Below are positions 2,189 to 14,236 of a stretch of 14,400 bases of DNA, one piece after another. This DNA comes from Candidatus Pacearchaeota archaeon. Lineage in GTDB: Archaea > Nanobdellota > Nanobdellia > Pacearchaeales > GW2011-AR1. The position numbers were made by a program, and so were the translations under genes. The stretch is taken from positions 1 through 14,400 of the forward strand of contig JACQLL010000043.1 of NCBI GenBank assembly GCA_016234025.1, given 5' to 3'. The number at the start of each line of letters is the position of its first letter. Position 1 is the first letter of the stretch. Below the pieces are notes generated by a model. That model saw only the letters and a program-made list of their open reading frames with translations, made no database searches and was not told the DNA's origin.

Positions 2189-2620
2189 ATGGAAAATGAA
2201 GTTAGAAGCAAAAAACTAAAATTATGCGGGCGATGTAAGTTAGTCGGGACTCTTTGTGGCGTGGCCTTATCTATGGTAGGAGTTGGTAATTGTACGTATG
2301 GAATCTATAGTCCTAAAAAAACTGAGAGAAACGCTTCGCCCGCAGTAAAAGAAGCAATCAGAATTGAAAAAGAATTTGGGTATATGCCTTTAAGGTCCAT
2401 TGTAACTAATCCATATATGAACGAAAAAGTTAGAAGATACAAAGGTTTATTTGACGAGGGTATTACTGTGTCGGAATTGAACGATTACGACTATGGGGTT
2501 GGCGGACTTCCTCATGCACCGGTAGGTTTACTTCTTCTAGCAGGTGGAGGAATGGTTGCTTCTTTTTCCAGAGGAATCTTTGACAGGATTGAGAAAAATC
2601 TGGGGAGGAAGGATGACTAA
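2189..2620 (+). CDS. small membrane protein of unknown function (Cys-rich N-terminus)
   Basis: I do not recognise this 143-residue protein. It starts with a basic stretch and a Cys cluster (L-C-G-R-C-K at 12-17 and Cys23), followed by a hydrophobic helix near 19-35 that ends in G-N-C-T-Y-G-I-Y-S. A hydrophilic middle (about 40-105) contains A-S-P-A-V-K-E-A-I-R-I-E-K-E-F. A second, glycine-rich hydrophobic segment lies at about 109-128 (A-P-V-G-L-L-L-L-A-G-G-G-M-V), before a charged tail. Two membrane passes are likely. The last eight bases overlap the next gene, whose product starts with a similar Cys-x-x-Cys plus helix layout. The pair is probably co-transcribed and may act together. The cysteines could bind metal, but no full zinc-ribbon pair is visible. 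Confidence 0.72.
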   Translation: MENEVRSKKLKLCGRCKLVGTLCGVALSMVGVGNCTYGIYSPKKTERNASPAVKEAIRIEKEFGYMPLRSIVTNPYMNEKVRRYKGLFDEGITVSELNDYDYGVGGLPHAPVGLLLLAGGGMVASFSRGIFDRIEKNLGRKDD

Positions 2621-3245
2621 CAGTCTGGGCAATTTCTGCTCGACATGCGGAAAAAGAACAAGAAATTGGAAAAGAATAGTTAAGAAAGTGTTTATGGGCT
2701 CCGTTGTAATTGCAGGATTATCTGGAGTTTACGGATACTGCACAAGTTCAGAATATCAAAGAGCTAGAGAATTAGATAGAAAAGCCACGTATATTGTTCC
2801 TGAAAACTCATCTGGGGAAGAGTTCAGGCTGGAAAGCGGTGAAACTATACGCACAGGTTGGTATAATGTTGAATACTGTGGCAGAAGTCTCGAATTAGAA
2901 TTGAATGATAAAGTAGCATTTCGCTCAGAGAGATGGACAAACGATCTTTACGATGGCCCAAGAGGTGATGCAAAAAATCTTAAAGATCTCGGAATCAAGG
3001 AGGGTGGTGAGTGGCATTGGTTTAATAGGCATAATAGATATAATTATCTCGACTCGGGAATTGAAAATTACGAATTCTGGCAAAATAAATACGAAAATTT
3101 GATTGATGAAGTTTATAATTTAGCTAAGGCAAGAAAAATTGAAGAAGAACAAACGAATGCTGTGAATGAAGAAATGAGAAAGACCAACAGAAGGAAAGCT
3201 CAAATTCATATGTTGGAAATATTGGTTGAGAAAGAAAAGAGTTAA
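2613..3245 (+). CDS. single-pass membrane protein of unknown function
   Basis: I chose the ATG at 2613 over an in-frame ATG at 2544. It has a strong Shine-Dalgarno stretch (GGGGAGG at about 2602-2608) and overlaps the previous gene by only eight bases. The 210-residue product begins F-C-S-T-C-G-K-R (Cys9, Cys12), a half zinc-ribbon-like knuckle. A basic segment and one membrane helix at about 27-45 follow, ending in G-V-Y-G-Y-C-T-S-S-E-Y. The larger soluble part (about 50-170) is rich in Trp, Tyr and Asn with no recognised domain. The last 50 residues are charged and look coiled-coil (K-I-E-E-E-Q to the end). The N-terminal layout matches the upstream protein, suggesting an old tandem duplication with divergent C-termini. 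Confidence 0.75.
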   Translation: MTNSLGNFCSTCGKRTRNWKRIVKKVFMGSVVIAGLSGVYGYCTSSEYQRARELDRKATYIVPENSSGEEFRLESGETIRTGWYNVEYCGRSLELELNDKVAFRSERWTNDLYDGPRGDAKNLKDLGIKEGGEWHWFNRHNRYNYLDSGIENYEFWQNKYENLIDEVYNLAKARKIEEEQTNAVNEEMRKTNRRKAQIHMLEILVEKEKS

Positions 3246-3309: not shown

Positions 3310-4167
3310 ATGTTAGAAATGTTAATTAATCCGAAGAAAGCCGAGAGGCAACCTTGGGAGATGTTTTTTGTAGGATTATTGTATGCAAGTCTCGCCGTCT
3401 TGCTAGTAAAATGGGTCTTCTCAGCAGACACAGTTCTTGTAAAATATTCAGGCATTCTCGTAGTTCTTTTCACTGTCTTATTTTCACTCCCATTTATGTA
3501 TTATACATTAAGATTGGAAGAAACAAGAATAAAAAAAGGTCGCGGAAGCATCCAGCTACTCAAAGACCACAGGCACGCACTTTACGCATTTCTCTGGCTT
3601 TTCGTCGGGTTTACCGTCGCATTTGCGTTTTGGTATTCTATTTTGCCGACGACAGAAAGCTTCCGCGCGCAAATAGAAACTTACTGCATGATAAATCGCC
3701 CTGCAAATTTCGAGGATTGCGTCTCGCAATACGGAATAAAAGACACGACAATAACAACTCCTTTTTTAACAAACAAGGAGCGCCTTTTCCTGATTTTCAC
3801 AAATAACATGTATGTCTTGTTGTTCACGCTCGTCTTTTCGTTAATATTCGGTGCCGGTGCAATTTTTATTCTGGCTTGGAACGCAAGCGTCATCGGAGCG
3901 GCCATAGGGATTTTCACCGACTACAAATTGTCTGCATTGCCTATCGGCCTTCTCCGTTTTTTCATTCACGGAATTCCGGAAATAGCTTCGTATTTCATTG
4001 TAGCACTTGCCGGCGGCATAGTATCAATAGCAGTCATAAGGCACGAAACAGGCACAGAGAAATTCTGGGAAGTCCTGCAGGATTCTCTAAACTTAATAAT
4101 CTCTTCGATAATAATTCTTTTCCTGGCAGCACTCGTCGAAGTTTTCATCACGCCGTCTTTATTTTAG
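3310..4167 (+). CDS. SpoIIM-family (DUF95) membrane protein
   Basis: A 285-residue integral membrane protein with about six or seven hydrophobic segments (near 18-37, 46-67, 90-111, 160-190, 192-204, 222-243 and 257-282). The family signature is clear: N-A-S-V-I-G-A-A-I-G at 191-200, then the conserved F-I-H-G-I-P-E-I-A-S-Y at 218-228 and a glycine-rich helix. In Bacillus the homologue SpoIIM takes part in septal peptidoglycan remodelling during engulfment. In archaea the function is unknown and sporulation is not implied. The loop at 111-160 contains Cys126 and Cys137 and may lie outside the membrane. The gene ends 35 bases before aglB but aglB has its own promoter. Confidence 0.83.
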   Translation: MLEMLINPKKAERQPWEMFFVGLLYASLAVLLVKWVFSADTVLVKYSGILVVLFTVLFSLPFMYYTLRLEETRIKKGRGSIQLLKDHRHALYAFLWLFVGFTVAFAFWYSILPTTESFRAQIETYCMINRPANFEDCVSQYGIKDTTITTPFLTNKERLFLIFTNNMYVLLFTLVFSLIFGAGAIFILAWNASVIGAAIGIFTDYKLSALPIGLLRFFIHGIPEIASYFIVALAGGIVSIAVIRHETGTEKFWEVLQDSLNLIISSIIILFLAALVEVFITPSLF

Positions 4168-4202: not shown

Positions 4203-6929
4203 ATGGAAGAGGGTAACATCTCAACTTCAGAAGAAGATTTGATAAAACAAAGAAAGGAAAAATTCGTAAAATTATTAAAAACAAAATATGACTACTTGGT
4301 TTATTTTTTCCTTGCTATTATTGTTTTCTTGACTGTACGAATCCGAACAAGCAACCTTTCAAAACTTAGGGATATCACAGACGGAAGTTGGACGCTCGGT
4401 CCCGACCTTGACCCATGGCTTTTCACCCGATGGGCAAAATACATAGTTGAAAACGGTTCACTCTTTGCGATAGACAACTTCAGATACGTTCCATTGGGAT
4501 TCAGGCCCCAGCAGGATTTAATTCTCCATCCTTATATGATTGCATGGTTCCACAAATTAGCGTCTTTATTCGGCTCCGGTTCAGTTGTTCAATCAGCAGC
4601 GATTTACCCTGTTTTCTTTTTTGCATTAACTACAATTGCTTTCTTCTTCATGACGCGGGCTTTATTCATAGAAAAATTAGGCAAAAACAAGGCCTCGCTA
4701 ATAGCACTTTTATCTTCGGTATTTTTATCAACAATTCCGGAATTACTTGCAAGAACAATAGCAGGAATACCGGAAAAAGAATCAGCCGCTTTCTTCTTCA
4801 TGTTCCTGTCTTTCTACTTCTTTCTTATTTCTTGGAGAGCAAAAAAACAATTTTCAATATATACCAATTCCGTCTTAGCAGGACTTTCAACAGCCGCGAT
4901 GGGTTTGGTTTGGGGAGGAGTCAGCTTCGTTTTTCTTACAATCGCTCCGACAATGCTAATCTGTTTCCTTCTCGGAAAAGTTGACAGGGAGAAAACAATC
5001 GCATACGGAATTTATATAGCATCAGGATTTATTGTCATGAATCTTTTCTCGCTTAGATACTCAATAAAAGGACTTCTTTCTTCACTCGACACCGGACTCT
5101 TAGTTGCAGTTTTCTTCATAATAGTTTTAGATTCTATAATTTCAAATACAAGGCTCAATAATTATCTTAAAAATAGCAAGTTAGCAAAAATACCTCCAAA
5201 GGCACTTTCTTTGATTCTCTCTGTGATTCTGCTGGCAATTATATCAACAATATTTTTCGGACCCCAGTTCATTCCGTCGAAAGTAAATGGTTTGGTTGCG
5301 TCCCTCGTAAAGCCTGCAACTTCTCGTTTAATTCAAACTGTCGCAGAGAATAGACAGCCCTATTTCACGGAATGGTCGTCAAGCTTCGGCCCGATTATAA
5401 AAAAGATTCCTGTTTTCTTTTGGTTATTTTTTAGCGGTTCAATTTATCTCTTTCACCATACTCTAGAACCACTTAGAAAAAAAGAGAGGAATATATTAGT
5501 TATCTCTTACATGATATTTTTGCTCTCGCTTGTTTTCAGCAGATATTCTCCGGATAGCCGTTTCAACGGAGAGAATTCGTTAAGCATTTCTTTTTATTCG
5601 CTGGGATTCATTTTGTTTGTCCTGACGATAGGATTTTATTATCACCGCTACCACAAATACAATGAAGAAGAAAGATTCAAAAAAGTAGATTCCGGCTACA
5701 TTTTATTATTCACTTTTTTCTTCCTCTCGATAATAGCTGCGCGCGGTATTGTAAGATTGGTAATGGTTCTTGCCATCCCCTCCTCAATTATAGCGTCTTA
5801 TTTTTGCATTTCTCTTGTTTACTCTGCAATTTCTTGTTACAAAGAGAAGAAGAATAAAATATTCGTGTTCATAATAACTGGAGTTGTCTTAATAGCGACA
5901 GTTATATCTGCTCATACGTTTTACGTGTCTTCAAGTTCATCCGCCGTAAATTATGCTCCGACGATTTACAACCAGCAATGGCAGAAATCAATGGCTTGGG
6001 TAAGAGAAAATACTCCTTCTGACGCAGTTTTCGCTCATTGGTGGGATTATGGTTATTGGATTCAGAGCATCGGAGAAAGAGCCACCGTCTTAGACGGAGG
6101 AAACGCCCGGGGCTACTGGAATCACATGATGGGAAGATACGCTTTGACAGGAAGCGACAACAGAGAAGCACTCAACTTTTTATATGCCCACAACGTTACT
6201 CATTTTCTGATTGACTCAACTGACATAGGAAAATACGGAGCATTTTCAATTATCGGAAGCGACGTCAATTACGACCGTTCGAGCTACATCCCGACATTTA
6301 TCAAAGAGCCGTCACAAACACAGGAAAGAAAAAACTCGACGGCATTTGTTTACCTTGCAGGAGGAGGAGCCGGTCTGGATGAAGACATTTTTTATGAGGA
6401 AAATGAAAGTAAAATATTCCTTCCTTCAGGAAGCGCATTCCTCGCAGCGATTGTCGTCGAGAGAAACTTCAACGGAGATATTAGTCAACCGATTGGTTTA
6501 TTCATATATCAACAAAATCAGTACACTTTGCCTTTAAGATATGCTTATGATAACGAGTTGATTGACTTCGGCTCCGGCATAGACGCAGGAGTATTCATCT
6601 TCCCAAACGGAATACAAAGTTCTACAGGAATGCAGGTAGACGGAGACGGAGCTCTCTTGTATCTAAGTAAAAGAACAGTAAAATCTCAACTTGCTCGTCT
6701 TTATCTGTACAAAGAAGATAATCCAAACTTTAAACTCGTAAATAGCGAAGACGATTTTCTGGTCGCGCAGATAAAATCCCAGAGCCCTGATTTCAGCAGC
6801 GACTTTATTAATTTTGGCGGTTTAAGAGGTCCTTTAAGAATATGGGAGGTAAAATATCCTGGAGACATAAAGTTTGATGAAAAATTCATCAAGACAGAAT
6901 ATCCAAGGGAGTTAATAGTAAGAAAATGA
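4203..6929 (+). CDS. aglB: STT3/AglB-type oligosaccharyltransferase
   Basis: Transfers a lipid-linked glycan to asparagine in N-x-S/T sites of proteins on the outer face of the membrane. The 908-residue length and layout fit archaeal AglB: a multi-pass membrane half to about residue 575, then a soluble C-terminal domain. Catalytic motifs are in place: D-L-D-P-W-L-F-T-R at 68-76 (first acidic metal motif), P-E-K-E-S at 190-194 (second acidic motif), T-V-A-E at 379-382 (TIXE equivalent), the Arg-rich A-A-R-G-I-V-R at 512-518, and W-W-D-Y-G-Y-W at 613-619 for acceptor-site recognition. It also has D-G-G-N-A-R-G and a DK-type motif (D674-x-x-K677). It overlaps the GPT gene by four bases (ATGA), linking glycan assembly and transfer in one operon. 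It looks intact. Confidence 0.95.
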   Translation: MEEGNISTSEEDLIKQRKEKFVKLLKTKYDYLVYFFLAIIVFLTVRIRTSNLSKLRDITDGSWTLGPDLDPWLFTRWAKYIVENGSLFAIDNFRYVPLGFRPQQDLILHPYMIAWFHKLASLFGSGSVVQSAAIYPVFFFALTTIAFFFMTRALFIEKLGKNKASLIALLSSVFLSTIPELLARTIAGIPEKESAAFFFMFLSFYFFLISWRAKKQFSIYTNSVLAGLSTAAMGLVWGGVSFVFLTIAPTMLICFLLGKVDREKTIAYGIYIASGFIVMNLFSLRYSIKGLLSSLDTGLLVAVFFIIVLDSIISNTRLNNYLKNSKLAKIPPKALSLILSVILLAIISTIFFGPQFIPSKVNGLVASLVKPATSRLIQTVAENRQPYFTEWSSSFGPIIKKIPVFFWLFFSGSIYLFHHTLEPLRKKERNILVISYMIFLLSLVFSRYSPDSRFNGENSLSISFYSLGFILFVLTIGFYYHRYHKYNEEERFKKVDSGYILLFTFFFLSIIAARGIVRLVMVLAIPSSIIASYFCISLVYSAISCYKEKKNKIFVFIITGVVLIATVISAHTFYVSSSSSAVNYAPTIYNQQWQKSMAWVRENTPSDAVFAHWWDYGYWIQSIGERATVLDGGNARGYWNHMMGRYALTGSDNREALNFLYAHNVTHFLIDSTDIGKYGAFSIIGSDVNYDRSSYIPTFIKEPSQTQERKNSTAFVYLAGGGAGLDEDIFYEENESKIFLPSGSAFLAAIVVERNFNGDISQPIGLFIYQQNQYTLPLRYAYDNELIDFGSGIDAGVFIFPNGIQSSTGMQVDGDGALLYLSKRTVKSQLARLYLYKEDNPNFKLVNSEDDFLVAQIKSQSPDFSSDFINFGGLRGPLRIWEVKYPGDIKFDEKFIKTEYPRELIVRK

Positions 6930-7933
6930 ATTCGCCGATTTTAACAATTCCGATTCTATTGAGTTTTTTTGTAACCATGTTTTTAATTCCGAGCTGGATA
7001 AAAAGGGCGAAGAAAGCAAAACTGACGGGAAGGGATATGCATAAATTAGACAAAAGAGACGTTGCAGAATCAGGCGGCGTAACGGTCGTTGGAGGTTTCG
7101 CATTAGGAGCGTTGCTTTACATCGCGCTTAACACATTCTTCTTAAAAACAGAAAATAATTTTGTAGAAATCTTTGCTCTTTTATCTTCTATATTCCTGAT
7201 AGCTTTTATTGCATTCACGGACGACATACTTGGCTGGAGAATTGGTTTGCGAAGAAGAACGAGAATTGTTCTGGTTGTACTGGCCTCAATTCCGCTTGTA
7301 GCAATAAACGCGGGCAAGAGCTCGGTCTATCTTCCTTTTTTTGGCGCAGTTGATTTGGGAGTAGCTTATCCGCTAATTGTTATTCCTTTAGGAATTGTTG
7401 GAGCGACCACAACATTCAATTTCCTTGCAGGATACAATGGATTAGAGGCAGGACAAGGAGTAATAATTTTATCCTCCTTAGCAATATTATCTTTCTATAC
7501 AGGAAGCCCGTGGCTGTCAATAATAGCTCTATGCATGATAGCATCATTGCTTGCTTTTCTTATTTACAACTTTTGTCCTGCGAAGATTTTTCCCGGAGAT
7601 ACTCTAACGTATACAATAGGAGGACTTATCGCAATAATCTCAATTCTCGGAGACTTCGAAAAAGTAGCAATTCTTTTCTTCATTCCTTACATTGCAGAAA
7701 CTTTTCTTAAGATAAGAGGGAAGTTAGTAAAACAAAGCTTCGGAAAACTTGAGAATGACTCAAGCTTGAGTATGCCCTATCCAAAAATATACAGCTTAAA
7801 TCATCTTGCGATATACACAATGCTAAAATACAAAATCAAACCAACGGAAAGAAAAGTAGTTTTCGCGATCTGGGCATTTCAAATAATAATCATTTTAGCA
7901 GTATTCTTTATTTTTAGAGGGGGAATATTCTAA
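6926..7933 (+). CDS. GPT/MraY-family glycosyl-1-phosphate transferase (Alg7/AglH-like)
   Basis: Membrane enzyme that transfers a HexNAc-1-phosphate from a UDP-sugar to dolichyl phosphate, the first step of lipid-linked glycan assembly. The 335-residue protein has about ten hydrophobic helices and the family motifs: R-D-M-H-K at 36-40, F-T-D-D-I-L-G-W at 97-104 (metal-binding Asp99/Asp100), N-F-L-A-G-Y-N-G-L-E-A-G at 165-176 (nucleotide side), and F-P-G-D at 222-225. The N-G-L-E-A form of the third motif is closer to eukaryotic/archaeal GPT than to bacterial MraY. Its start overlaps aglB by four bases, and its stop shares one base with the flippase start (TAATG). The exact sugar is not determined. 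Confidence 0.9.
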   Translation: MNSPILTIPILLSFFVTMFLIPSWIKRAKKAKLTGRDMHKLDKRDVAESGGVTVVGGFALGALLYIALNTFFLKTENNFVEIFALLSSIFLIAFIAFTDDILGWRIGLRRRTRIVLVVLASIPLVAINAGKSSVYLPFFGAVDLGVAYPLIVIPLGIVGATTTFNFLAGYNGLEAGQGVIILSSLAILSFYTGSPWLSIIALCMIASLLAFLIYNFCPAKIFPGDTLTYTIGGLIAIISILGDFEKVAILFFIPYIAETFLKIRGKLVKQSFGKLENDSSLSMPYPKIYSLNHLAIYTMLKYKIKPTERKVVFAIWAFQIIIILAVFFIFRGGIF

Positions 7934-9150
7934 TGGACTTGAAAAAAATAAGTTCAGGAATATTTGGAGGAAGCATAATACTTCTCATAACTATCAATCT
8001 CTTCAATGCATTAAACTATTTTTTTCATTTCATAATGGTGAGGTTGCTATCTGCCGCAGATTATGGAGTGCTTGCAGCTTTAATGTCTATAACTTATATC
8101 TTCAATATTTTTTCAGAATCAATTCAAACAATCATGGCTCGATACACCTCGAGGGAGAACTCTAATGGTAAAATTAAAAACATTCTAAGACGTTCTTTCA
8201 AAAAGAGTTTCAAAATAGCTTCTGCCCTGATTGTTTTCTATTTATTAATTTCTCTGTTCTTGAAAAGTTTTTTGAATATAGACTACTCTTTGTTGAGTCT
8301 TACAGGGTTGGCAATTTTCGCGGTCTTTCTGACGCCAGTTGGAAGAGGGGCATTACAGGGAAAAAAGAGGTTTAAGTCGTTTGGATTTAATATGATATTT
8401 GAGTCAGTTGCAAAATTAGCGCTTGGAATATTTTTTGTTTACTTGGGATGGAGGGTTTATGGAGCAATCCTCGCAGTTATAATAGCTTCTTTCATAGCAT
8501 TGCTTTTATCTTTCTTCAGTTTGAAAGACATTTTTTCAAGCAGGGAAACAAAAACAGACAGCAATAAAATTTACGTATACAGCATTCCTGTTTTCGTCAT
8601 CATGTTTTCCATAATATCTTTTTACAGCCTGGATGTGATTTTAGCGAAAGCATTTTTTACAGGAGAGGTTGCAGGTCAGTATGCTATTGCATCCGTCTTA
8701 TCAAAGATAATTCTCTTTGGAACTTTACCAGTAAGCAAAGCAATGTTTCCGTTGTCATCTGAACAATCGAAAAACGGAAAGGCACCAAAAACTCTCCTGA
8801 ATAAATCTCTTTTAATACTAGGACTTGGAGTAACTGCGGCGCTTTTGATAATAGGGTTATTTCCAGGTTTAATGATAAGAATTTTTTCAGGCGAGTACTA
8901 TTCAGCTGCTTCAGGAATTTTACTAAACCTCTCCATTGCAATGTCTCTCATGTCATTTACTAATTTGATACTTCTTTATAAGTTATCCGTCGGAAGAATA
9001 AGAAATTATAAGCTGATGATTATTTTTCCAGTTATAGAACTAGCTATGTTGAGCGCATTTCATTCAAATCTTAATCAATATTCAATAGTTTTAATTTTCG
9101 TTAACATGTTATTCTTGTTTGGTAGCTTTTTCCTTTTGTCTAGGAAATAA
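7933..9150 (+). CDS. Wzx-like polysaccharide flippase (MOP superfamily)
   Basis: A 405-residue multi-pass membrane protein with about twelve helices. The N-terminal pattern (F-F-H-F-I-M-V-R-L-L-S-A-A-D-Y-G-V-L-A-A-L) is typical of the oligosaccharide flippase branch of the MOP superfamily (Wzx/RfbX/MurJ relatives). The second half repeats the fold, with D-V-I-L-A-K-A-F-F-T-G-E-V-A-G-Q-Y-A-I-A-S typical of the middle repeat. It is somewhat shorter than the usual 420-500 residues. It follows GPT in the same unit, starting on the last base of the GPT stop. The likely job is moving the lipid-linked glycan to the outer face for AglB. Substrate is inferred from context only. Confidence 0.88.
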   Translation: MDLKKISSGIFGGSIILLITINLFNALNYFFHFIMVRLLSAADYGVLAALMSITYIFNIFSESIQTIMARYTSRENSNGKIKNILRRSFKKSFKIASALIVFYLLISLFLKSFLNIDYSLLSLTGLAIFAVFLTPVGRGALQGKKRFKSFGFNMIFESVAKLALGIFFVYLGWRVYGAILAVIIASFIALLLSFFSLKDIFSSRETKTDSNKIYVYSIPVFVIMFSIISFYSLDVILAKAFFTGEVAGQYAIASVLSKIILFGTLPVSKAMFPLSSEQSKNGKAPKTLLNKSLLILGLGVTAALLIIGLFPGLMIRIFSGEYYSAASGILLNLSIAMSLMSFTNLILLYKLSVGRIRNYKLMIIFPVIELAMLSAFHSNLNQYSIVLIFVNMLFLFGSFFLLSRK

Positions 9151-9202: not shown

Positions 9203-9934
9203 ATGGAGCAGAAAATCTCTGTCATAATGCCTTTTTACAACGACGAAGATATTGCAGGACGCGTTGTAGATGAGGTGAACAGGTTCATAATCGAAAATCC
9301 AAGATTTGAATTTATTTTAGTAAACGATGGTTCTAAAGATAATACTCTGAATATACTAAAAGAAAAAACTAAGAAACTAAAAAATAAGAATCTTTATTTA
9401 TTATCTTACGAAAAAAATATGGGAAAAGGACATGCGATAAGAACAGGAGTTAATTTCGCAAAAACCGATTACATATGTTTTTTAGATAGCGACCTCGCAT
9501 ACTCACTCGATCATTTGTTCATTTTGGAAAATGCTTTAAAGAAAGATGATGTTGTTATGGGCTGTCGAGGCCTTGGGGAAAATAATTTCGAAAAGACAAA
9601 GTTGATAAGGGTACTGTTCGGAAAGGCATTCAATCTTTTCTCGAGAATAATCTTAAATCTTAATTTTGTCGATATGCAGGCAGGAATCAAGGGATTCAGA
9701 AAAAAAATAGCAAAGCAATTATTCGGGGCACAGAAGATAAACGGATTCGCATTTGACGTAGAGATTATTTTCCTTGCGAAAAAGAAAAAAGCCAGAATAA
9801 AAGAGATTGCGGCTTCTTTATCAGAGAGTCATATAAATCAATCTTCAAAGGTAAATATAATAAAGGATTCAAGCAAAATGTTCTTTAGCTTGTTGAAAAT
9901 AAAGTGGTACGATTTAACAGGAAAATATGGATAA
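9203..9934 (+). CDS. GT2 glycosyltransferase, dolichyl-phosphate-hexose synthase type
   Basis: A 243-residue GT-A fold glycosyltransferase of family 2, closest in pattern to Alg5/DPM1 enzymes, which put one hexose from a nucleotide sugar on dolichyl phosphate at the cytoplasmic face. Visible motifs: S-V-I-M-P-F-Y-N-D at 6-14, V-N-D-G-S-K-D-N-T at 40-48, N-M-G-K-G-H-A-I-R-T-G at 72-82, the D-S-D metal motif at 95-97, and D-M-Q-A-G-I-K-G-F at 157-165 followed by G-F-A-F-D-V-E-I at 181-188. That last pair is characteristic of the dolichyl-phosphate-sugar group. No C-terminal membrane anchor is seen. Its last eight bases overlap the deacetylase gene. The donor sugar cannot be told. Confidence 0.88.
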   Translation: MEQKISVIMPFYNDEDIAGRVVDEVNRFIIENPRFEFILVNDGSKDNTLNILKEKTKKLKNKNLYLLSYEKNMGKGHAIRTGVNFAKTDYICFLDSDLAYSLDHLFILENALKKDDVVMGCRGLGENNFEKTKLIRVLFGKAFNLFSRIILNLNFVDMQAGIKGFRKKIAKQLFGAQKINGFAFDVEIIFLAKKKKARIKEIAASLSESHINQSSKVNIIKDSSKMFFSLLKIKWYDLTGKYG

Positions 9935-10697
9935 AAAGATATTGCTAAGTTTTGATGTAGAAGAGTTTGACATACCGGAAGAATACGGACAGAGATTGTC
10001 AGACGAGGAGAAATTTTCCGTCTCTTTAAATGGTTTGAAAAATATTCTGAATCTTCTTGAGAAATTAAAGATAAAAGCTACTCTTTTTACAACAGCAAAT
10101 TTTGCTCTGAATAATATCGAGATAATAAAGAAAGCGGCAAAAGTTCACGAAATCTCTTCTCATAATTTTTTTCATTCTTCGTTTAGGGAAGAAGATCTAA
10201 AAAACTCGCGCAAAACACTTGAAAGAATAACGGGAAATAAAATAAGAGGATTTAGGATGCCTAGGTTGTTAAATATAGATGAAAAAAAAGTGATTGACGC
10301 AGGATATAGTTATAACTCTTCAATGTGCGCAAGCTATATGCCAGGTAGATATAACAATCTTTCAAAAAAACGTACGTTTCATTTTTCAGGCAACCTTCTC
10401 AATATCCCTACTTCAGTAGTTCCGCTTATTAGGCTTCCGATTTCCTGGCTAACCTTCAAGAATTTGCCGCTCCCAATTTTCAAGATGGTGACAAAAATAA
10501 CTCTTATCAGGGATAAATATCTAAATATCTATTTCCATCCTTGGGAATTTACAGATTTAGGGAAATACAATCTTCCTTTTTATGTTAAAAAATATTCAGG
10601 GAGTAAGATAATTCCCCGTTTGGAAAACTATCTCTCATGGCTAAAAAATCAGGGAGATTTCATAAAGTTTTCTGACTTTGAGAAAAAGCATAGATAA
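9927..10697 (+). CDS. polysaccharide deacetylase (CE4/NodB fold)
   Basis: A metal-dependent deacetylase that removes acetyl groups from N-acetylated sugars. The 256-residue protein has the CE4 motifs in order: S-F-D-V-E-E-F at 8-14 (Asp10 as likely base, with an acidic metal ligand after it), A-T-L-F-T-T-A at 51-57, S-H-N-F-F-H at 78-83 (metal ligands His79 and His83), F-R-M-P-R at 109-113, and F-H-P-W-E at 203-207. The H-P-W-E ending and F-D-V-E start place it with the intracellular/exopolysaccharide-associated branch rather than peptidoglycan deacetylases. No signal peptide is visible, so it probably acts in the cytoplasm on nucleotide- or lipid-linked sugars. It is co-transcribed with the GT2 gene (8-base overlap). 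Confidence 0.87.
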   Translation: MDKKILLSFDVEEFDIPEEYGQRLSDEEKFSVSLNGLKNILNLLEKLKIKATLFTTANFALNNIEIIKKAAKVHEISSHNFFHSSFREEDLKNSRKTLERITGNKIRGFRMPRLLNIDEKKVIDAGYSYNSSMCASYMPGRYNNLSKKRTFHFSGNLLNIPTSVVPLIRLPISWLTFKNLPLPIFKMVTKITLIRDKYLNIYFHPWEFTDLGKYNLPFYVKKYSGSKIIPRLENYLSWLKNQGDFIKFSDFEKKHR

Positions 10698-10699
10698 AC

Positions 10700-10707
10700 T
10701 TATAAAA
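10700..10707 (+). promoter_or_regulatory. TATA box of the acpS-acp-ligase-GNAT unit
   Basis: TTATAAAA centred about 25 nt before the acpS ATG at 10728, within a 30-base gap. Leaderless spacing; the four downstream genes have no other gap large enough for a promoter. Confidence 0.6.
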
Positions 10708-10727
10708 CTGGTATATACCTCTATAAT

Positions 10728-11084
10728 ATGGAATTCGAGATAGGATGTGACATTCAGGAAATTGATAAGATAATTTTAGATAAGCATTTCTTGAGCAACA
10801 TTTTTACAAAAGATGAAATTTCTTTCTGCGAAAACAAAAGCAACCCAAGGATGCACTTTGCAGGAAGGTTCGCCGCAAAGGAGTCTGCTATTAAGGCATT
10901 ATCTGGCTTAGGAGAAAAAATATTCTACAAAGATTTGGAAATATCTGAAAAACAAAGAAAGCCAGCGATGAAAATATTAAAAAATTTAAATAACAGATAC
11001 TCGATAAAAGTCACAATATCTCATTCAGGAAATTATGCGATAGGATTTACCATCGTCTTGAAAGATGAAAAACATAATAATTGA
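10728..11084 (+). CDS. acpS: holo-[acyl-carrier-protein] synthase (AcpS-type phosphopantetheinyl transferase)
   Basis: Moves the 4'-phosphopantetheine arm of CoA to the conserved Ser of an acyl carrier protein, making it active. At 118 residues it has the normal AcpS length. The signature is complete: I-G-C-D-I-Q-E-I at 5-12 (metal ligand Asp8), F-T-K-D-E-I-S-F-C at 26-34, F-A-G-R-F-A-A-K-E-S-A-I-K-A-L at 44-58 (Glu52 as metal ligand, Lys51), and the closing I-S-H-S-G-N-Y-A at 97-104. The partner ACP gene overlaps its last 20 bases in another frame, so the two are surely expressed together. Stand-alone AcpS is uncommon in archaea, and the gene may have come from bacteria. Its base composition matches its neighbours. 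Confidence 0.92.
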   Translation: MEFEIGCDIQEIDKIILDKHFLSNIFTKDEISFCENKSNPRMHFAGRFAAKESAIKALSGLGEKIFYKDLEISEKQRKPAMKILKNLNNRYSIKVTISHSGNYAIGFTIVLKDEKHNN

Positions 11085-11319
11085 GAAGACAGATAAAATA
11101 ATATCAGGTCATTTGAAGATACCTCCAAAAGACCTGTCAGACGATATAACATCGGACGAATTATCAGAGTGGGACTCTGTGACTCACTTAAAAATAATTT
11201 CAGAATTGGAGAAAAATTTCGGAATAAAATTCAGCATAGACGAGATAACAGAGTTAGAAAACGTCGGGAAAATTAGAAAGTTGGTGTTAAAAAAAGTAGG
11301 AGAGAAAAATGAGTTATAA
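11065..11319 (+). CDS. acyl carrier protein
   Basis: An 84-residue four-helix carrier that holds acyl groups as thioesters on a phosphopantetheine arm. The attachment site is Ser38 in S-E-W-D-S-V-T-H-L, a variant of the D-S-[LM] motif with Val after Ser. Helix 2 (H-L-K-I-I-S-E-L-E-K-N-F-G-I) and the I-K-F-S-I-D-E-I-T-E-L-E-N-V-G-K-I segment match ACP and peptidyl-carrier-like proteins closely. The stand-alone form with a dedicated AcpS and a ligase next to it suggests a special-purpose carrier, as DltC is in teichoic acid D-alanylation, rather than fatty acid synthesis. No FAS genes are in the window. It overlaps acpS by 20 bases and the ligase gene by 11. Confidence 0.9.
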   Translation: MKNIIIEKTDKIISGHLKIPPKDLSDDITSDELSEWDSVTHLKIISELEKNFGIKFSIDEITELENVGKIRKLVLKKVGEKNEL

Positions 11320-13252
11320 ATTATGGGCTCCTTCAGAAGAAAAAAGAGAAAGTTCCGTTATGAAAAAATACCTCAAATACTTAAAAGAGAACAAAGATTC
11401 GAATTTCAATTCTTACATGGAGCTTTATGATTGGTCTATAAAAGATAGGGATAGTTTTTGGGAGTCTATCTGGGAATTTAGCGGAATAATTCACTCTAAG
11501 AAATACGACAAGGTTCTATCGAATGGAGAAGACATGCTAAATTCAAAGTGGTTTGTGGGAGCAAAACTTAATTTCGCCCAAAATTTATTAAAGAAGAAAG
11601 ATTCATCTCCTGCGATAATCTCTTTTAGCGAGTCTCTTGAAAACGAAGAAGTTGTAACATACAAAGAGCTCTTCGAAAAAGTTTCAGCTTTGTCAAATTC
11701 ACTCGACAAAATCGGTTTAAAAGTTGGAGACAGAGTTTCAGCATTCATGCCCAATATTCCTGAAACAATTATTGCAATGCTCGCTACAACTTCTATTGGA
11801 GGAATCTGGTCTTCTTGTTCAGTTGATTCAGGAACCGAAAGCATGATTGAGAGATTCTCCCAGATAAATCCAAAAATTCTGTTCACCACAGATAGCTATT
11901 ATTCAAAAGGAAAAAAGATTAGTCTGCTCGAAAAAATAAGTTCTGCAGTCAAGAAAATTCCATCAATCGAAAAAGTGATAATCTTTTCTTTAGATGACAA
12001 GATAGAAATAAAAGAGGTCCCAAACACAATTCTTTACAAAAATTTATTATCAGAAAATAAGGAATTAAAATTTAAACAACTCCCGTTTGATCATCCTGTT
12101 TACATACTTTACACTTCAGGAACGACTGCAAAGCCGAAGTGCATAGTGCATGGAGCGGGAGGAACTCTTCTCCAGCATTTTAAGGAACTTGCTCTTCATT
12201 CAGATGTAAAAGAAAATGACAGGATTTACTATACTACAACTTGCGGGTGGGTGCTTTGGAACTGGATGACAAGCGCATTAATGCTCGGTGCGACTATTCT
12301 GTTAAGAGATGGCAGTCCGTTTTATCCATATCCTGATATTTTGTTTGCGCTTGCAGAGAAAAAAGAAATTACTCACTTCGGTGCAAGTGCAAGATATTTT
12401 ACATCGCTTTCAAAACTAGACATGACTCCTGCTAAAAAATTCAATCTCGAAAACTTGAGAGTTATTATGTATGGCGGCTCGGCTCTCTCACCTGAAGGAT
12501 TTGAATACATTTACAAAAACGTAAAAAAAGATGTCATGATTTCTTCAATGGCCGGAGGAACAGAGATAGTATCATGCTTTGCGATAGGAAATCCTCTTTC
12601 AGAAGTTTGGGCAGGAGAGATACAGGGATGGGGCCTTGGCATGAACTGCCGGGTTTTCGATTCTTCAGGAAATTCATTGAGACAAAAAAAAGGCGAGCTC
12701 GTTTGCACGTCATCATTCCCGTCACAACCCCTAAAATTCTGGGAAGATGAAAAAAAGGAGAAATACAAAAACACTTATTTTAATAAATACCCAAATGTCT
12801 GGAAGCACGGCGACTATGCAGAGATTACAGAAAGAGGGACCGTAATAATTTACGGGCGTTCCGACGCAACGTTAAATCCCGGAGGAGTGAGAATAGGAAC
12901 ATCTGAAATTTATCAGGCACTTGAACCAATAAAAGAAATAGAGGACTCGATAGCAGTTTCTCAAAACTGGGATAACGATTCAAGAATCGTGCTTTTTGTT
13001 AAATTGATAAGTTCAGAAACTTTCACAAAAGAGCTGGCAAGAAAAATAAGGAACTCTATTTTAAAAAACACAACTCCTAATCATGTTCCGGCAAAAATAA
13101 TTCCGGTTGAAGATATTCCTTACACAATAAACGGAAAAAAAATGGAGCTAACAGTTAAGAATCTGATAAACGGAGACGAACCTGAAAAAGAAGCAATATC
13201 AAACCCGGAATCACTAAGATTTTACAGGGATATAGAAGAATTAAGGAGCTGA
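11309..13252 (+). CDS. acetoacetyl-CoA synthetase-like acyl-adenylate ligase
   Basis: ANL-superfamily enzyme that activates a carboxylic acid with ATP to an acyl-adenylate and passes it to a thiol. Length (647) and motifs match acetoacetyl-CoA synthetase: an N-terminal ACAS segment including W-F-V-G-A-K-L-N-F-A-Q-N at 81-92, P-loop Y-T-S-G-T-T-A-K-P-K at 268-277, the T-T-C-G-W-V-L-W-N-W segment, G-G-T-E-I-V-S, H-G-D-Y-A-E-I, G-R-S-D-A-T-L-N-P-G-G-V-R-I-G, and the catalytic Lys in T-I-N-G-K-K-M-E-L near residue 610. A Shine-Dalgarno-like GGAGAG precedes the ATG. It lies between the ACP and acyltransferase genes, so the thiol acceptor may be ACP rather than CoA, and the acid may be a short 3-oxo or 3-hydroxy acid. 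Both points are inference. Confidence 0.9.
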   Translation: MSYKLWAPSEEKRESSVMKKYLKYLKENKDSNFNSYMELYDWSIKDRDSFWESIWEFSGIIHSKKYDKVLSNGEDMLNSKWFVGAKLNFAQNLLKKKDSSPAIISFSESLENEEVVTYKELFEKVSALSNSLDKIGLKVGDRVSAFMPNIPETIIAMLATTSIGGIWSSCSVDSGTESMIERFSQINPKILFTTDSYYSKGKKISLLEKISSAVKKIPSIEKVIIFSLDDKIEIKEVPNTILYKNLLSENKELKFKQLPFDHPVYILYTSGTTAKPKCIVHGAGGTLLQHFKELALHSDVKENDRIYYTTTCGWVLWNWMTSALMLGATILLRDGSPFYPYPDILFALAEKKEITHFGASARYFTSLSKLDMTPAKKFNLENLRVIMYGGSALSPEGFEYIYKNVKKDVMISSMAGGTEIVSCFAIGNPLSEVWAGEIQGWGLGMNCRVFDSSGNSLRQKKGELVCTSSFPSQPLKFWEDEKKEKYKNTYFNKYPNVWKHGDYAEITERGTVIIYGRSDATLNPGGVRIGTSEIYQALEPIKEIEDSIAVSQNWDNDSRIVLFVKLISSETFTKELARKIRNSILKNTTPNHVPAKIIPVEDIPYTINGKKMELTVKNLINGDEPEKEAISNPESLRFYRDIEELRS

Positions 13253-14236
13253 ATGATAGAAATAAGAAAATATCAAAAAGGAGATGAGAAAGGGATAATC
13301 TTATTATGGCAGAACATTTTTGACAAATTAGGTTTAAAGAATGACATCCACAAAATTAACGAACAATGGTGGAAATGGAGAGTTGATGGAAATCCTATCG
13401 GAAAGCCAAAAATTTATCTGGCTTTAGATAACGGAAAGATAGTTGCGCATCACATGGCAGAGAGACTAACTCTTCTCTCCGATGAAAAAGAAAAAATCAT
13501 TTATCAGGGGATGTTGTCAATGGTTGAAAAAAAATACAAAGGAATGTTGCTCTTAAAGATGATAAACCTCATCGTTAAAGAAACAAAAAAAGAGGACGCT
13601 TTGGCTTACGGATTTCCAAACAATGACTCGCTATACCTCTTCGAAAAAATGGGCTGGAAAAATACAGGAGAAGTACCTGTTCTCGGAAGGTATCTGAATC
13701 CGTTACTAAGAGTTTTAGATACAAAAAAATTATTCGGTAATTATAAAATTCTGGATGTGAAAACATTCAATAAAGACATAGACAAATTTTTGTCAACGCT
13801 GAATAAGAATAGATTATCAATAAAAAGGTCGAGTGATTTCTTGAACTGGCGTTATTCAGACGATTCTCAAAAAAGATATAAAAAAATTATCCTCGCGCAA
13901 AAAAACGAGATTAAAGGATTCGCGGTTTTTAGATGTGGAAAATTCAATAACAGAAAAGTTGGAATCATAATGGATATCTTTGCAGAAAATAAGGACTATT
14001 TTAAAATACTTCTAAGCAAAATAGTTAATTATTTCTCCAAAGAAGGAATGGAATTTGTGACGTGCTATATGTTAAAGAAAAGTCCTTTTTATAATACTCT
14101 AAAATGGAGAGGATTTTTCCAGGTTCCAAAATTTCTTCTGCCAAAGAGAAATTTTTTCCTTTTGTTAAACGGAAATGAACGAGAATCATCTATCGAGAAC
14201 TGGGACGTTTCATATGGGGACTGGGACAGCGTCTAG
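13253..14236 (+). CDS. double GNAT-like acyltransferase
   Basis: A 327-residue GNAT-family acyltransferase starting on the base after the ligase stop (TGAATG), so it is translationally coupled. The N-terminal half is a full GNAT domain: an opening strand I-E-I-R-K-Y-Q-K-G-D, Q-W-W-K-W-R-V-D-G-N-P near 38-48, then L-A-Y-G-F-P-N-N-D-S-L-Y-L-F-E-K-M-G-W at 117-135, the usual late GNAT helix. The second half (about 150-327) looks like a degenerate repeat with S-S-D-F-L-N-W-R-Y and ends W-D-V-S-Y-G-D-W-D-S-V, a tail common in glycan-linked double-GNAT proteins. The donor could be acyl-ACP from the adjacent genes and the acceptor an amino sugar. Acetyl-CoA as donor is the plain alternative. Confidence 0.8.
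   Translation: MIEIRKYQKGDEKGIILLWQNIFDKLGLKNDIHKINEQWWKWRVDGNPIGKPKIYLALDNGKIVAHHMAERLTLLSDEKEKIIYQGMLSMVEKKYKGMLLLKMINLIVKETKKEDALAYGFPNNDSLYLFEKMGWKNTGEVPVLGRYLNPLLRVLDTKKLFGNYKILDVKTFNKDIDKFLSTLNKNRLSIKRSSDFLNWRYSDDSQKRYKKIILAQKNEIKGFAVFRCGKFNNRKVGIIMDIFAENKDYFKILLSKIVNYFSKEGMEFVTCYMLKKSPFYNTLKWRGFFQVPKFLLPKRNFFLLLNGNERESSIENWDVSYGDWDSV

Follow-up and report, generated by a model that had tools for sequence, protein, structure and literature searches.

The window analysed here, a stretch of 14,400 nucleotides that makes up the entire contig C9 of a Candidatus Pacearchaeota archaeon (JACQLL010000043.1), carries a cassette of four genes of bacterial type next to an AglB N-glycosylation locus. 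The genes encode a holo-acyl carrier protein synthase (AcpS), a discrete acyl carrier protein (ACP), an AMP-forming ligase, and a tandem GNAT protein (positions 10728–14236, Table 1). With moderate confidence, we regard the cassette as an ACP-dependent acyl-decoration module on the archaeal glycan locus; the decoration is probably N-acylation of the surface glycan by a short acid, perhaps of the β-oxo or β-hydroxy type. It is a new archaeal version of a kind of system already known in bacteria, and it is not a Dlt system. This reading is supported by the overlapping layout of the genes, by the cassette holding the sole AcpS and ACP detected in the genome, and by the deacetylases found beside relatives of the GNAT protein. 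Indeed, the four genes are co-directional: those for AcpS and ACP overlap by 20 bases, those for ACP and ligase by 11, and the ligase and GNAT genes meet at a zero-base junction, an arrangement described in an earlier note on this DNA and matched by the coordinates of the open reading frames. A TTATAAAA string precedes the AcpS ATG by about 20 bases, as fits a leaderless archaeal start. The preceding deacetylase gene ends 30 bases before the AcpS start, and co-transcription of the cassette with this gene is equally possible as transcription from a promoter of its own.

In the proposed mechanism, AcpS would add phosphopantetheine to Ser38 of the ACP. The ligase would adenylate a short carboxylic acid, e.g., acetoacetate or a related C4 β-oxo or β-hydroxy acid, and would put the activated acid on holo-ACP. 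The GNAT protein, which resembles N-myristoyltransferase (NMT) and Eis, would then move the acyl group to an amine on a sugar that is bound to a lipid or a nucleotide, an amine possibly exposed by the adjacent NodB-type deacetylase. Finally, the acylated glycan would be flipped and attached to protein by AglB. The identities and order of the genes are read from the sequence; we infer which acyl group is used, that it is loaded on ACP and not on CoA, which acceptor receives it, and that deacetylation precedes re-acylation.

The motifs of both AcpS and ACP are intact, and both proteins exceed their Pfam cut-offs (25 bits for ACPS PF01648 and 20.8 bits for PP-binding PF00550). AcpS also passes TIGR00516 (cut-off 59.8 bits) and can be aligned with the AcpS structure 1f80, GRFAAKE motif included, in keeping with the PF01648 fold. 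We take the conserved Asp and the Glu of GRFAAKE to be the functional residues of AcpS-type phosphopantetheinyl transferases. In the ACP, D37-S38 is invariant across 10 aligned carriers, namely that of the window and nine from related loci. The source genome (663 kb in 97 contigs, 75% complete) contains one detected AcpS and one detected ACP, both in the cassette. A location of these genes beside those of a fatty acid or polyketide synthase had been named as the case that would overturn the acylation proposal; the ketosynthase model PF00109 gave no match in this 75% complete genome even at E ≤ 10, KAS III and thiolase families not being searched separately. The same model matches in 14 of 14 control genomes, including four archaea. 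Of these four archaea, none has a detected AcpS and just one a PP-binding domain; thus, a carrier in an archaeon calls for an explanation.

The earlier note had assigned the third protein as a ligase that activates an acid. It is an AMP-forming ligase (AMP-binding PF00501, 157 bits; ACAS_N PF16177, 49 bits) but not a generic one, since it scores far above the curated cut-off (520.9 bits) of TIGR01217, acetoacetate–CoA ligase. Its closest PDB match is the acetoacetyl-CoA synthetase (AACS) of S. lividans (4wd1, 498 bits, residues 5–646), its nearest solved relative, from which it departs at the STGSPL, SISGG, and GYxY positions. These positions are kept by 96–99% of 119 listed AACS homologues; overall, the ligase has a different residue at 40 positions conserved in at least 93% of them. 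It thus lacks residues that the family conserves in what are presumably the acyl pocket and the CoA loop. Two proteins, P0007 and P0008, are 57 and 58% identical to the window ligase and share its MYGGSAL for STGSPL, SM[AP]GG for SISGG, and GWVLWNWM for GWMMWNWL, as well as the lack of Tyr at position 199, a residue kept by 96% of the 119 AACS; this kinship is read from the alignment, no ligase tree having been built. The adenylation motif of the window ligase is an unusual SGTTA for SGTTG, which is absent from P0007 and P0008. By alignment with acetyl-CoA synthetase, the STGSPL and SISGG positions presumably line the acyl pocket, and position 199 presumably lies in the loop that binds the 3′-phosphate of CoA. 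Because residues of the pocket and the CoA loop have changed, both the substrate and the acceptor of the ligase may have shifted, but these departures are no proof of ACP use.

Pfam gives the GNAT protein only a sub-threshold Acetyltransf_9 match (E 0.005); PF13527 is present in two remote relatives, P0129 and P0130. The predicted fold comprises two GNAT folds in one chain, as in NMT and Eis, the tandem arrangement being apparent from the fold only, and it matches N-acyltransferases as far as the NMT C-terminus. The conserved C-terminus of the protein aligns with that of NMT, and catalysis by the terminal carboxylate is putative. Relatives are few: a search of 5.8 billion proteins, which reaches only those with short exact words in common, returned nine, two of them remote. 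None was found on viral contigs, and a search of genome contigs yielded two bacterial loci. Seven GNAT neighbourhoods were examined (window, L031–L035, and L176). Four of them hold a deacetylase with Pfam or phmmer support, the window, L031, L032, and L033, and in the latter three it is adjacent to the GNAT relative (PIG-L in L031, a phmmer match of 75 bits in L032, and PF01522 in L033). The candidate deacetylase of L035 was recognized by eye only and has no Pfam match. Acyl suppliers are also present at four of the seven loci: the ligase and ACP in the window, a thiolase and a 3-hydroxyacyl-CoA dehydrogenase as the next genes on the same strand in L034 (G131), KAS III and an SDR 1.2 and 2.2 kb away on the opposite strand in L176 (G439), and an AMP-ligase about 2 kb upstream in L035. 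Thiolase with dehydrogenase, KAS III with reductase, and an acetoacetate-type ligase hint at C4 β-oxo or β-hydroxy acyl groups, no more than suggestively, as the GNAT matches in L034, L035, and L176 are remote (25–55 bits).

To place the cassette among other archaeal carriers, the phylum was surveyed: AcpS is found in 30 of 371 genomes, at 31 loci, and PP-binding domains in 41. The 30 AcpS loci besides that of the window were also examined. A carrier together with an activator is present at 13 of the 31 loci, the activator being an AMP-ligase at seven (window, G251, G379, G096, G395, G340, and G205) and FkbH at six (G002, G123, G329, G216, G352, and G383). The carrier exceeds the Pfam cut-off at eight of the 13 (window, G251, G002, G329, G216, G352, G340, and G383), falls below it in G096, G395, and G205, in the last fused to a transferase, and is recognized by motif only in G379 and in G123, where Pfam gives no match. 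A same-strand AcpS–ACP–AMP-ligase order is common to the window, G395, G251, and G379, with overlaps of 16 and 8 bases in G395. In G205 (L107, 3354–4481), one protein joins an Antibiotic_NAT N-acyltransferase to a segment resembling ACP (PF00550 at E 0.017, under the cut-off), which agrees with delivery from carrier to transferase.

A different arrangement prevails at 14 of the 31 loci (L106, L108, L111–L114, L116–L122, and L123), where an AMP-ligase–ACP–PlsC-type acyltransferase fusion lies near AcpS. The acyltransferase is recognized by Pfam in four (L106, L113, L117, and L122) and by phmmer to L113 in ten, among them L123, truncated where its contig ends. The AcpS proteins of the fused-type loci form one branch with support of 95/85 that excludes the AcpS of the window, in an unrooted tree of 30 of the 31 AcpS (G205 left out) with two long rows. 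The remaining four loci comprise two with acetate kinase/phosphotransacetylase-like genes, one with an HMG-CoA reductase fusion, and G277, which is unplaced. PF00109 matches occur in nine of the 30 AcpS genomes; they approach full length only in two genomes of the fused type, G247 and G194, and are partial in two of the 13 carrier-type genomes (G096 and G251).

The AglB/STT3 gene reported as a neighbour of the cassette is indeed 3.8 kb away from it. A search of 32 genomes detected STT3 in 30, and the gap between AcpS and STT3 is 2.2 kb in G383, 9.4 kb in G123, and 10.2 kb in G395. AcpS thus lies within 10.3 kb of AglB at four of the 13 carrier-type loci, against 0.31 expected by chance (P 0.0002), and at three of 12 against 0.27 when the window is omitted (P 0.002), with a distance limit set after the data were seen and contigs that are broken. 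Seven of the other nine loci are on a different contig from STT3 and two are more than 50 kb away. No fused-type locus was seen within this range (0 of 14; STT3 is on another contig for 12 and about 114 kb away for one, and the genome of the last has no STT3 match). Owing to the post hoc limit, the broken contigs, and the fact that glycan genes cluster anyway, this proximity supports a glycan locus more than AglB itself.

Several observations weigh against the decoration reading. The exact four-gene set was found in no other genome searched (351 genomes of the phylum and 181 of the family for the ligase, 371 of the phylum and 200 of the order for GNAT) and is therefore a singleton among them. 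TIGR01217 exceeds its cut-off in one of 181 and one of 351 genomes, both times the source genome; the GNAT profile matches in four of 371 and two of 200, with scores of about 519–559 bits for the source genome and 25–80 bits for the others. These counts leave out ligase matches in 19 other genomes, most of them 27–31% identical. Within the family, 64 of 181 genomes including the source contain ligase matches, all but that of the source below the TIGR01217 cut-off and presumably acetyl-CoA-synthetase-like. Among the best 120 of 7999 scored AACS, none besides that of the window is paired with a GNAT relative, pairing in metagenomes being judged only by equal size of the longest contig; hence, the GNAT and the acetoacetate-type ligase may not travel together. 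Three of the seven GNAT loci (L034, L035, and L176) have no Pfam- or phmmer-supported deacetylase, and the GNAT matches in these same loci (G131, G059, and G439, respectively) are remote and partial, at 25–55 bits. At five of the 13 carrier-type loci, the carrier fails to reach the Pfam cut-off or is identified by motif only. The residue changes in the ligase leave the identity of the acid uncertain, acetoacetate ligases of known function use CoA, and the GNAT protein could use it too. Consequently, the earlier picture of a self-contained acylation path holds in part: it is favored by one AcpS, one ACP, no PF00109, the fusion in G205, and an AcpS–ACP–ligase order repeated in three relatives (G395, G251, and G379), whereas conservation of the gene order ends there, the full four-gene set being confined to the source genome.

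The most serious alternative, although an unlikely one, is that the ligase makes acetoacetyl-CoA or a similar thioester for direct use by the GNAT protein, AcpS and ACP serving a separate partner that is lost or separated by the contig break. The equivalog-level match of the ligase to acetoacetate–CoA ligase is in line with this, as are the CoA-type suppliers (thiolase and 3-hydroxyacyl-CoA dehydrogenase) beside the remote GNAT relative in G131 and the fact that GNATs as a rule use CoA thioesters. Such a division of labor is disfavored by the tight overlap of the AcpS, ACP, and ligase genes, by the repetition of their order in three other genomes, and by the lack, in the window ligase, P0007, and P0008, of the Tyr of the putative CoA-phosphate loop. 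Synthesis of a small molecule or signal, e.g., an N-acyl amino acid or amide, by genes that follow the glycan operon by chance is improbable. The sequence of the GNAT protein does not fix its acceptor, and the contig ends 164 bases beyond the GNAT gene, its downstream context being lost; yet carriers of the same type recur near AglB, and the GNAT family sits among deacetylases and glycosyltransferases at several loci.

A system that activates scavenged fatty acids to acylate the membrane or lipids, as Aas does, would match the fused arrangement at 14 of the phylum's 31 AcpS loci, but we consider it highly improbable for the window, since its AcpS falls outside the fused-type branch of the tree, its ligase is of the acetoacetate family rather than long-chain, it is surrounded by glycan genes, and the window proteins scanned yielded no PlsC. 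Least probable is aminoacylation or alanylation of an envelope polymer by a Dlt-like system, the analogy drawn in the earlier note. The window shares with Dlt a ligase and a small carrier adjoining envelope genes, and such an operon is present in G340 of the same class. Nevertheless, the window ligase belongs to another family, with 71 bits on the DltA model (cut-off 560) against 795 on AACS, and neither a DltB MBOAT, DltD, nor alanine racemase was found among the window proteins scanned, on a contig ending at 14400. Membership in the Dlt system is therefore not upheld. The G340 locus (L103, 3187–9751) combines co-directional genes for a ligase, a GNAT, an ACP, an alanine racemase, an MBOAT, a DUF1574 protein, and AcpS. 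Its amino-acid-adenylating ligase reaches 347 bits on TIGR01733 (over cut-off) and 293 on DltA TIGR01734 (below), and its MBOAT 146 bits on DltB TIGR04091 (below). As judged by sequence, this operon is Dlt-like; if L103 is indeed of the D-alanylation type, its presence in an archaeon of this kind would be remarkable.

The closest parallels to ACP-dependent decoration are bacterial. Flagellin-glycosylation islands (FGIs) of Aeromonas group II and Enterobacteriaceae are described, in the relevant parts of two reports, as containing ACP, an AMP-dependent synthetase/CaiC, a reductase, LuxE, and LuxC (PMC7874193, PMC4875605). The window shares with them an ACP and an AMP synthetase inside a protein-glycan locus; it differs in being archaeal and beside AglB, in having its own AcpS within the cassette, an acetoacetate-family ligase, and an NMT/Eis-like GNAT, and no LuxC, LuxE, or reductase was found among the window proteins scanned. 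A LuxE–LuxC–hexapeptide transferase–AcpS–ACP–AMP-ligase–Fe-ADH set is present about 10 kb from AglB in G395 (L101, 5316–11169, with L173), which looks like an archaeal counterpart of the FGI kit. In Nod factor synthesis, a deacetylase (NodB) frees an amine and an N-acyltransferase (NodA) adds an acyl group borne by a carrier (NodF). The same deacetylase/carrier/N-acyltransferase scheme is proposed for the window, although no ketosynthase (NodE) was found, the acyl group would enter via the ligase, and the GNAT is of a different family. The Acinetobacter modules lgaHI, psaGH, and qhbC, for 3-hydroxybutanoyl on surface amino sugars, resemble the proposed N-acylation of a surface sugar with a C4 hydroxy acid; the likeness is one of description, the transferases not having been compared, and the sections of that report on these modules mention no ACP/AcpS cassette (PMC9676051). 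No publication joining ACP with AglB in archaea, or with hydroxybutyryl on archaeal N-glycans, was found in open-licence PMC. The earlier note knew of no archaeal N-glycan or envelope acylation system with this make-up; ACP/ligase kits in glycan loci are, however, already reported from bacterial FGIs (PMC7874193, PMC4875605, in part).

Taken together, these loci allow a broader and more tentative reading, in which small-genomed archaea may run a mix-and-match ACP acylation toolkit, imported from bacteria, for AglB N-glycans. Its AcpS–ACP core would be fixed, its activators interchangeable (acetoacetate-type ligase, other AMP-ligases, and FkbH), and its transferases swappable (tandem GNAT, AAC(3)-like, hexapeptide, and MBOAT with alanine racemase); the window would represent deacetylation followed by re-acylation, with β-oxo- or β-hydroxybutyryl on an N-glycan amine. 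ACP-pathway genes have been noted earlier in DPANN archaea and, in the part of the report that concerns them, attributed to the synthesis of fatty acids (PMC10936187). A role of carriers in decorating surface glycans, if real, would explain without such a pathway why ACP genes are scattered among these genomes. Bacterial-type glycan kits would then be placed next to archaeal N-glycosylation genes, and the acylation of AglB glycans would provide a concrete, testable chemistry for the cell surface of an archaeon with a small genome.

Table 1. Genes of the acyl-carrier cassette and of the adjoining glycan locus in the window.
Feature	Position	Strand	Evidence
SpoIIM-family membrane protein	3310–4167	+	PF01944, 60 bits
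AglB/STT3 oligosaccharyltransferase (908 aa)	4203–6929	+	PF02516, PF21436, over cut-off
MraY/WecA-like sugar-1-phosphate transferase (335 aa)	6926–7933	+	PF00953, 112 bits
Polysaccharide flippase (405 aa)	7933–9150	+	PF13440/PF01943
Family 2 glycosyltransferase (GT2, 243 aa)	9203–9934	+	PF00535, 98 bits
Polysaccharide deacetylase, NodB/XrtA-associated type (256 aa), possible functional partner	9927–10697	+	PF01522, 35.3 bits, over cut-off
AcpS, holo-ACP synthase (118 aa)	10728–11084	+	PF01648, 53.1 bits; TIGR00516, 62.7 bits
Discrete ACP (84 aa), phosphopantetheine Ser in EWDSV motif	11065–11319	+	PF00550, 28.9 bits
AMP-forming ligase, divergent acetoacetate–CoA ligase family (647 aa)	11309–13252	+	TIGR01217, 794.8 bits
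Tandem GNAT, likely N-acyltransferase, ending in conserved SYGDWD (327 aa)	13253–14236	+	Predicted fold

Upstream of the cassette, STT3 and genes for lipid-linked sugars constitute an AglB N-glycan locus. AglB also matches the archaeal STT3 model TIGR04154, but under its cut-off, and the deacetylase matches TIGR03006 (E 8e-17), likewise under the cut-off. The order SpoIIM–AglB–MraY–flippase is shared with G002 of the same genus, where the flippase gene is cut by the contig end, and SpoIIM–AglB–flippase–GT2 with G395 of the same family. Since the SpoIIM–AglB block is kept in both, the contig is taken as native archaeal DNA. Between a TrmB-like regulator and SpoIIM, two overlapping genes encode small proteins with no Pfam match above cut-off (2189–3245).

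Further combinations were noted at other carrier and AcpS loci. An MBOAT transferase occurs together with AcpS, ACP, and FkbH in G352 (L102, 7316–11184), and an MBOAT with an ACP, adjoining a contig-end fragment without a Pfam match, in G330 (L168, 6245–9529). In G251 (L094, 1783–4482), a single protein of 899 aa combines cytidylyltransferase, NeuB, and PIG-L deacetylase upstream of AcpS–ACP–ligase. Among the fused-type loci, the L113 fusion is accompanied by an MFS transporter (Pfam), resembling, in archaea, the Aas/LplT lipid acylation set. In L110 (G054) and L115 (G196), AcpS overlaps an acetate kinase-like gene by 4 bases, followed by a phosphotransacetylase-like gene, both recognized by eye. 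Finally, L105 (G143, 9794–12901) encodes an AMP-ligase/ACP/HMG-CoA reductase fusion of 1035 aa with AcpS about 3.5 kb away, suggesting that HMG may be carrier-bound in the mevalonate route.

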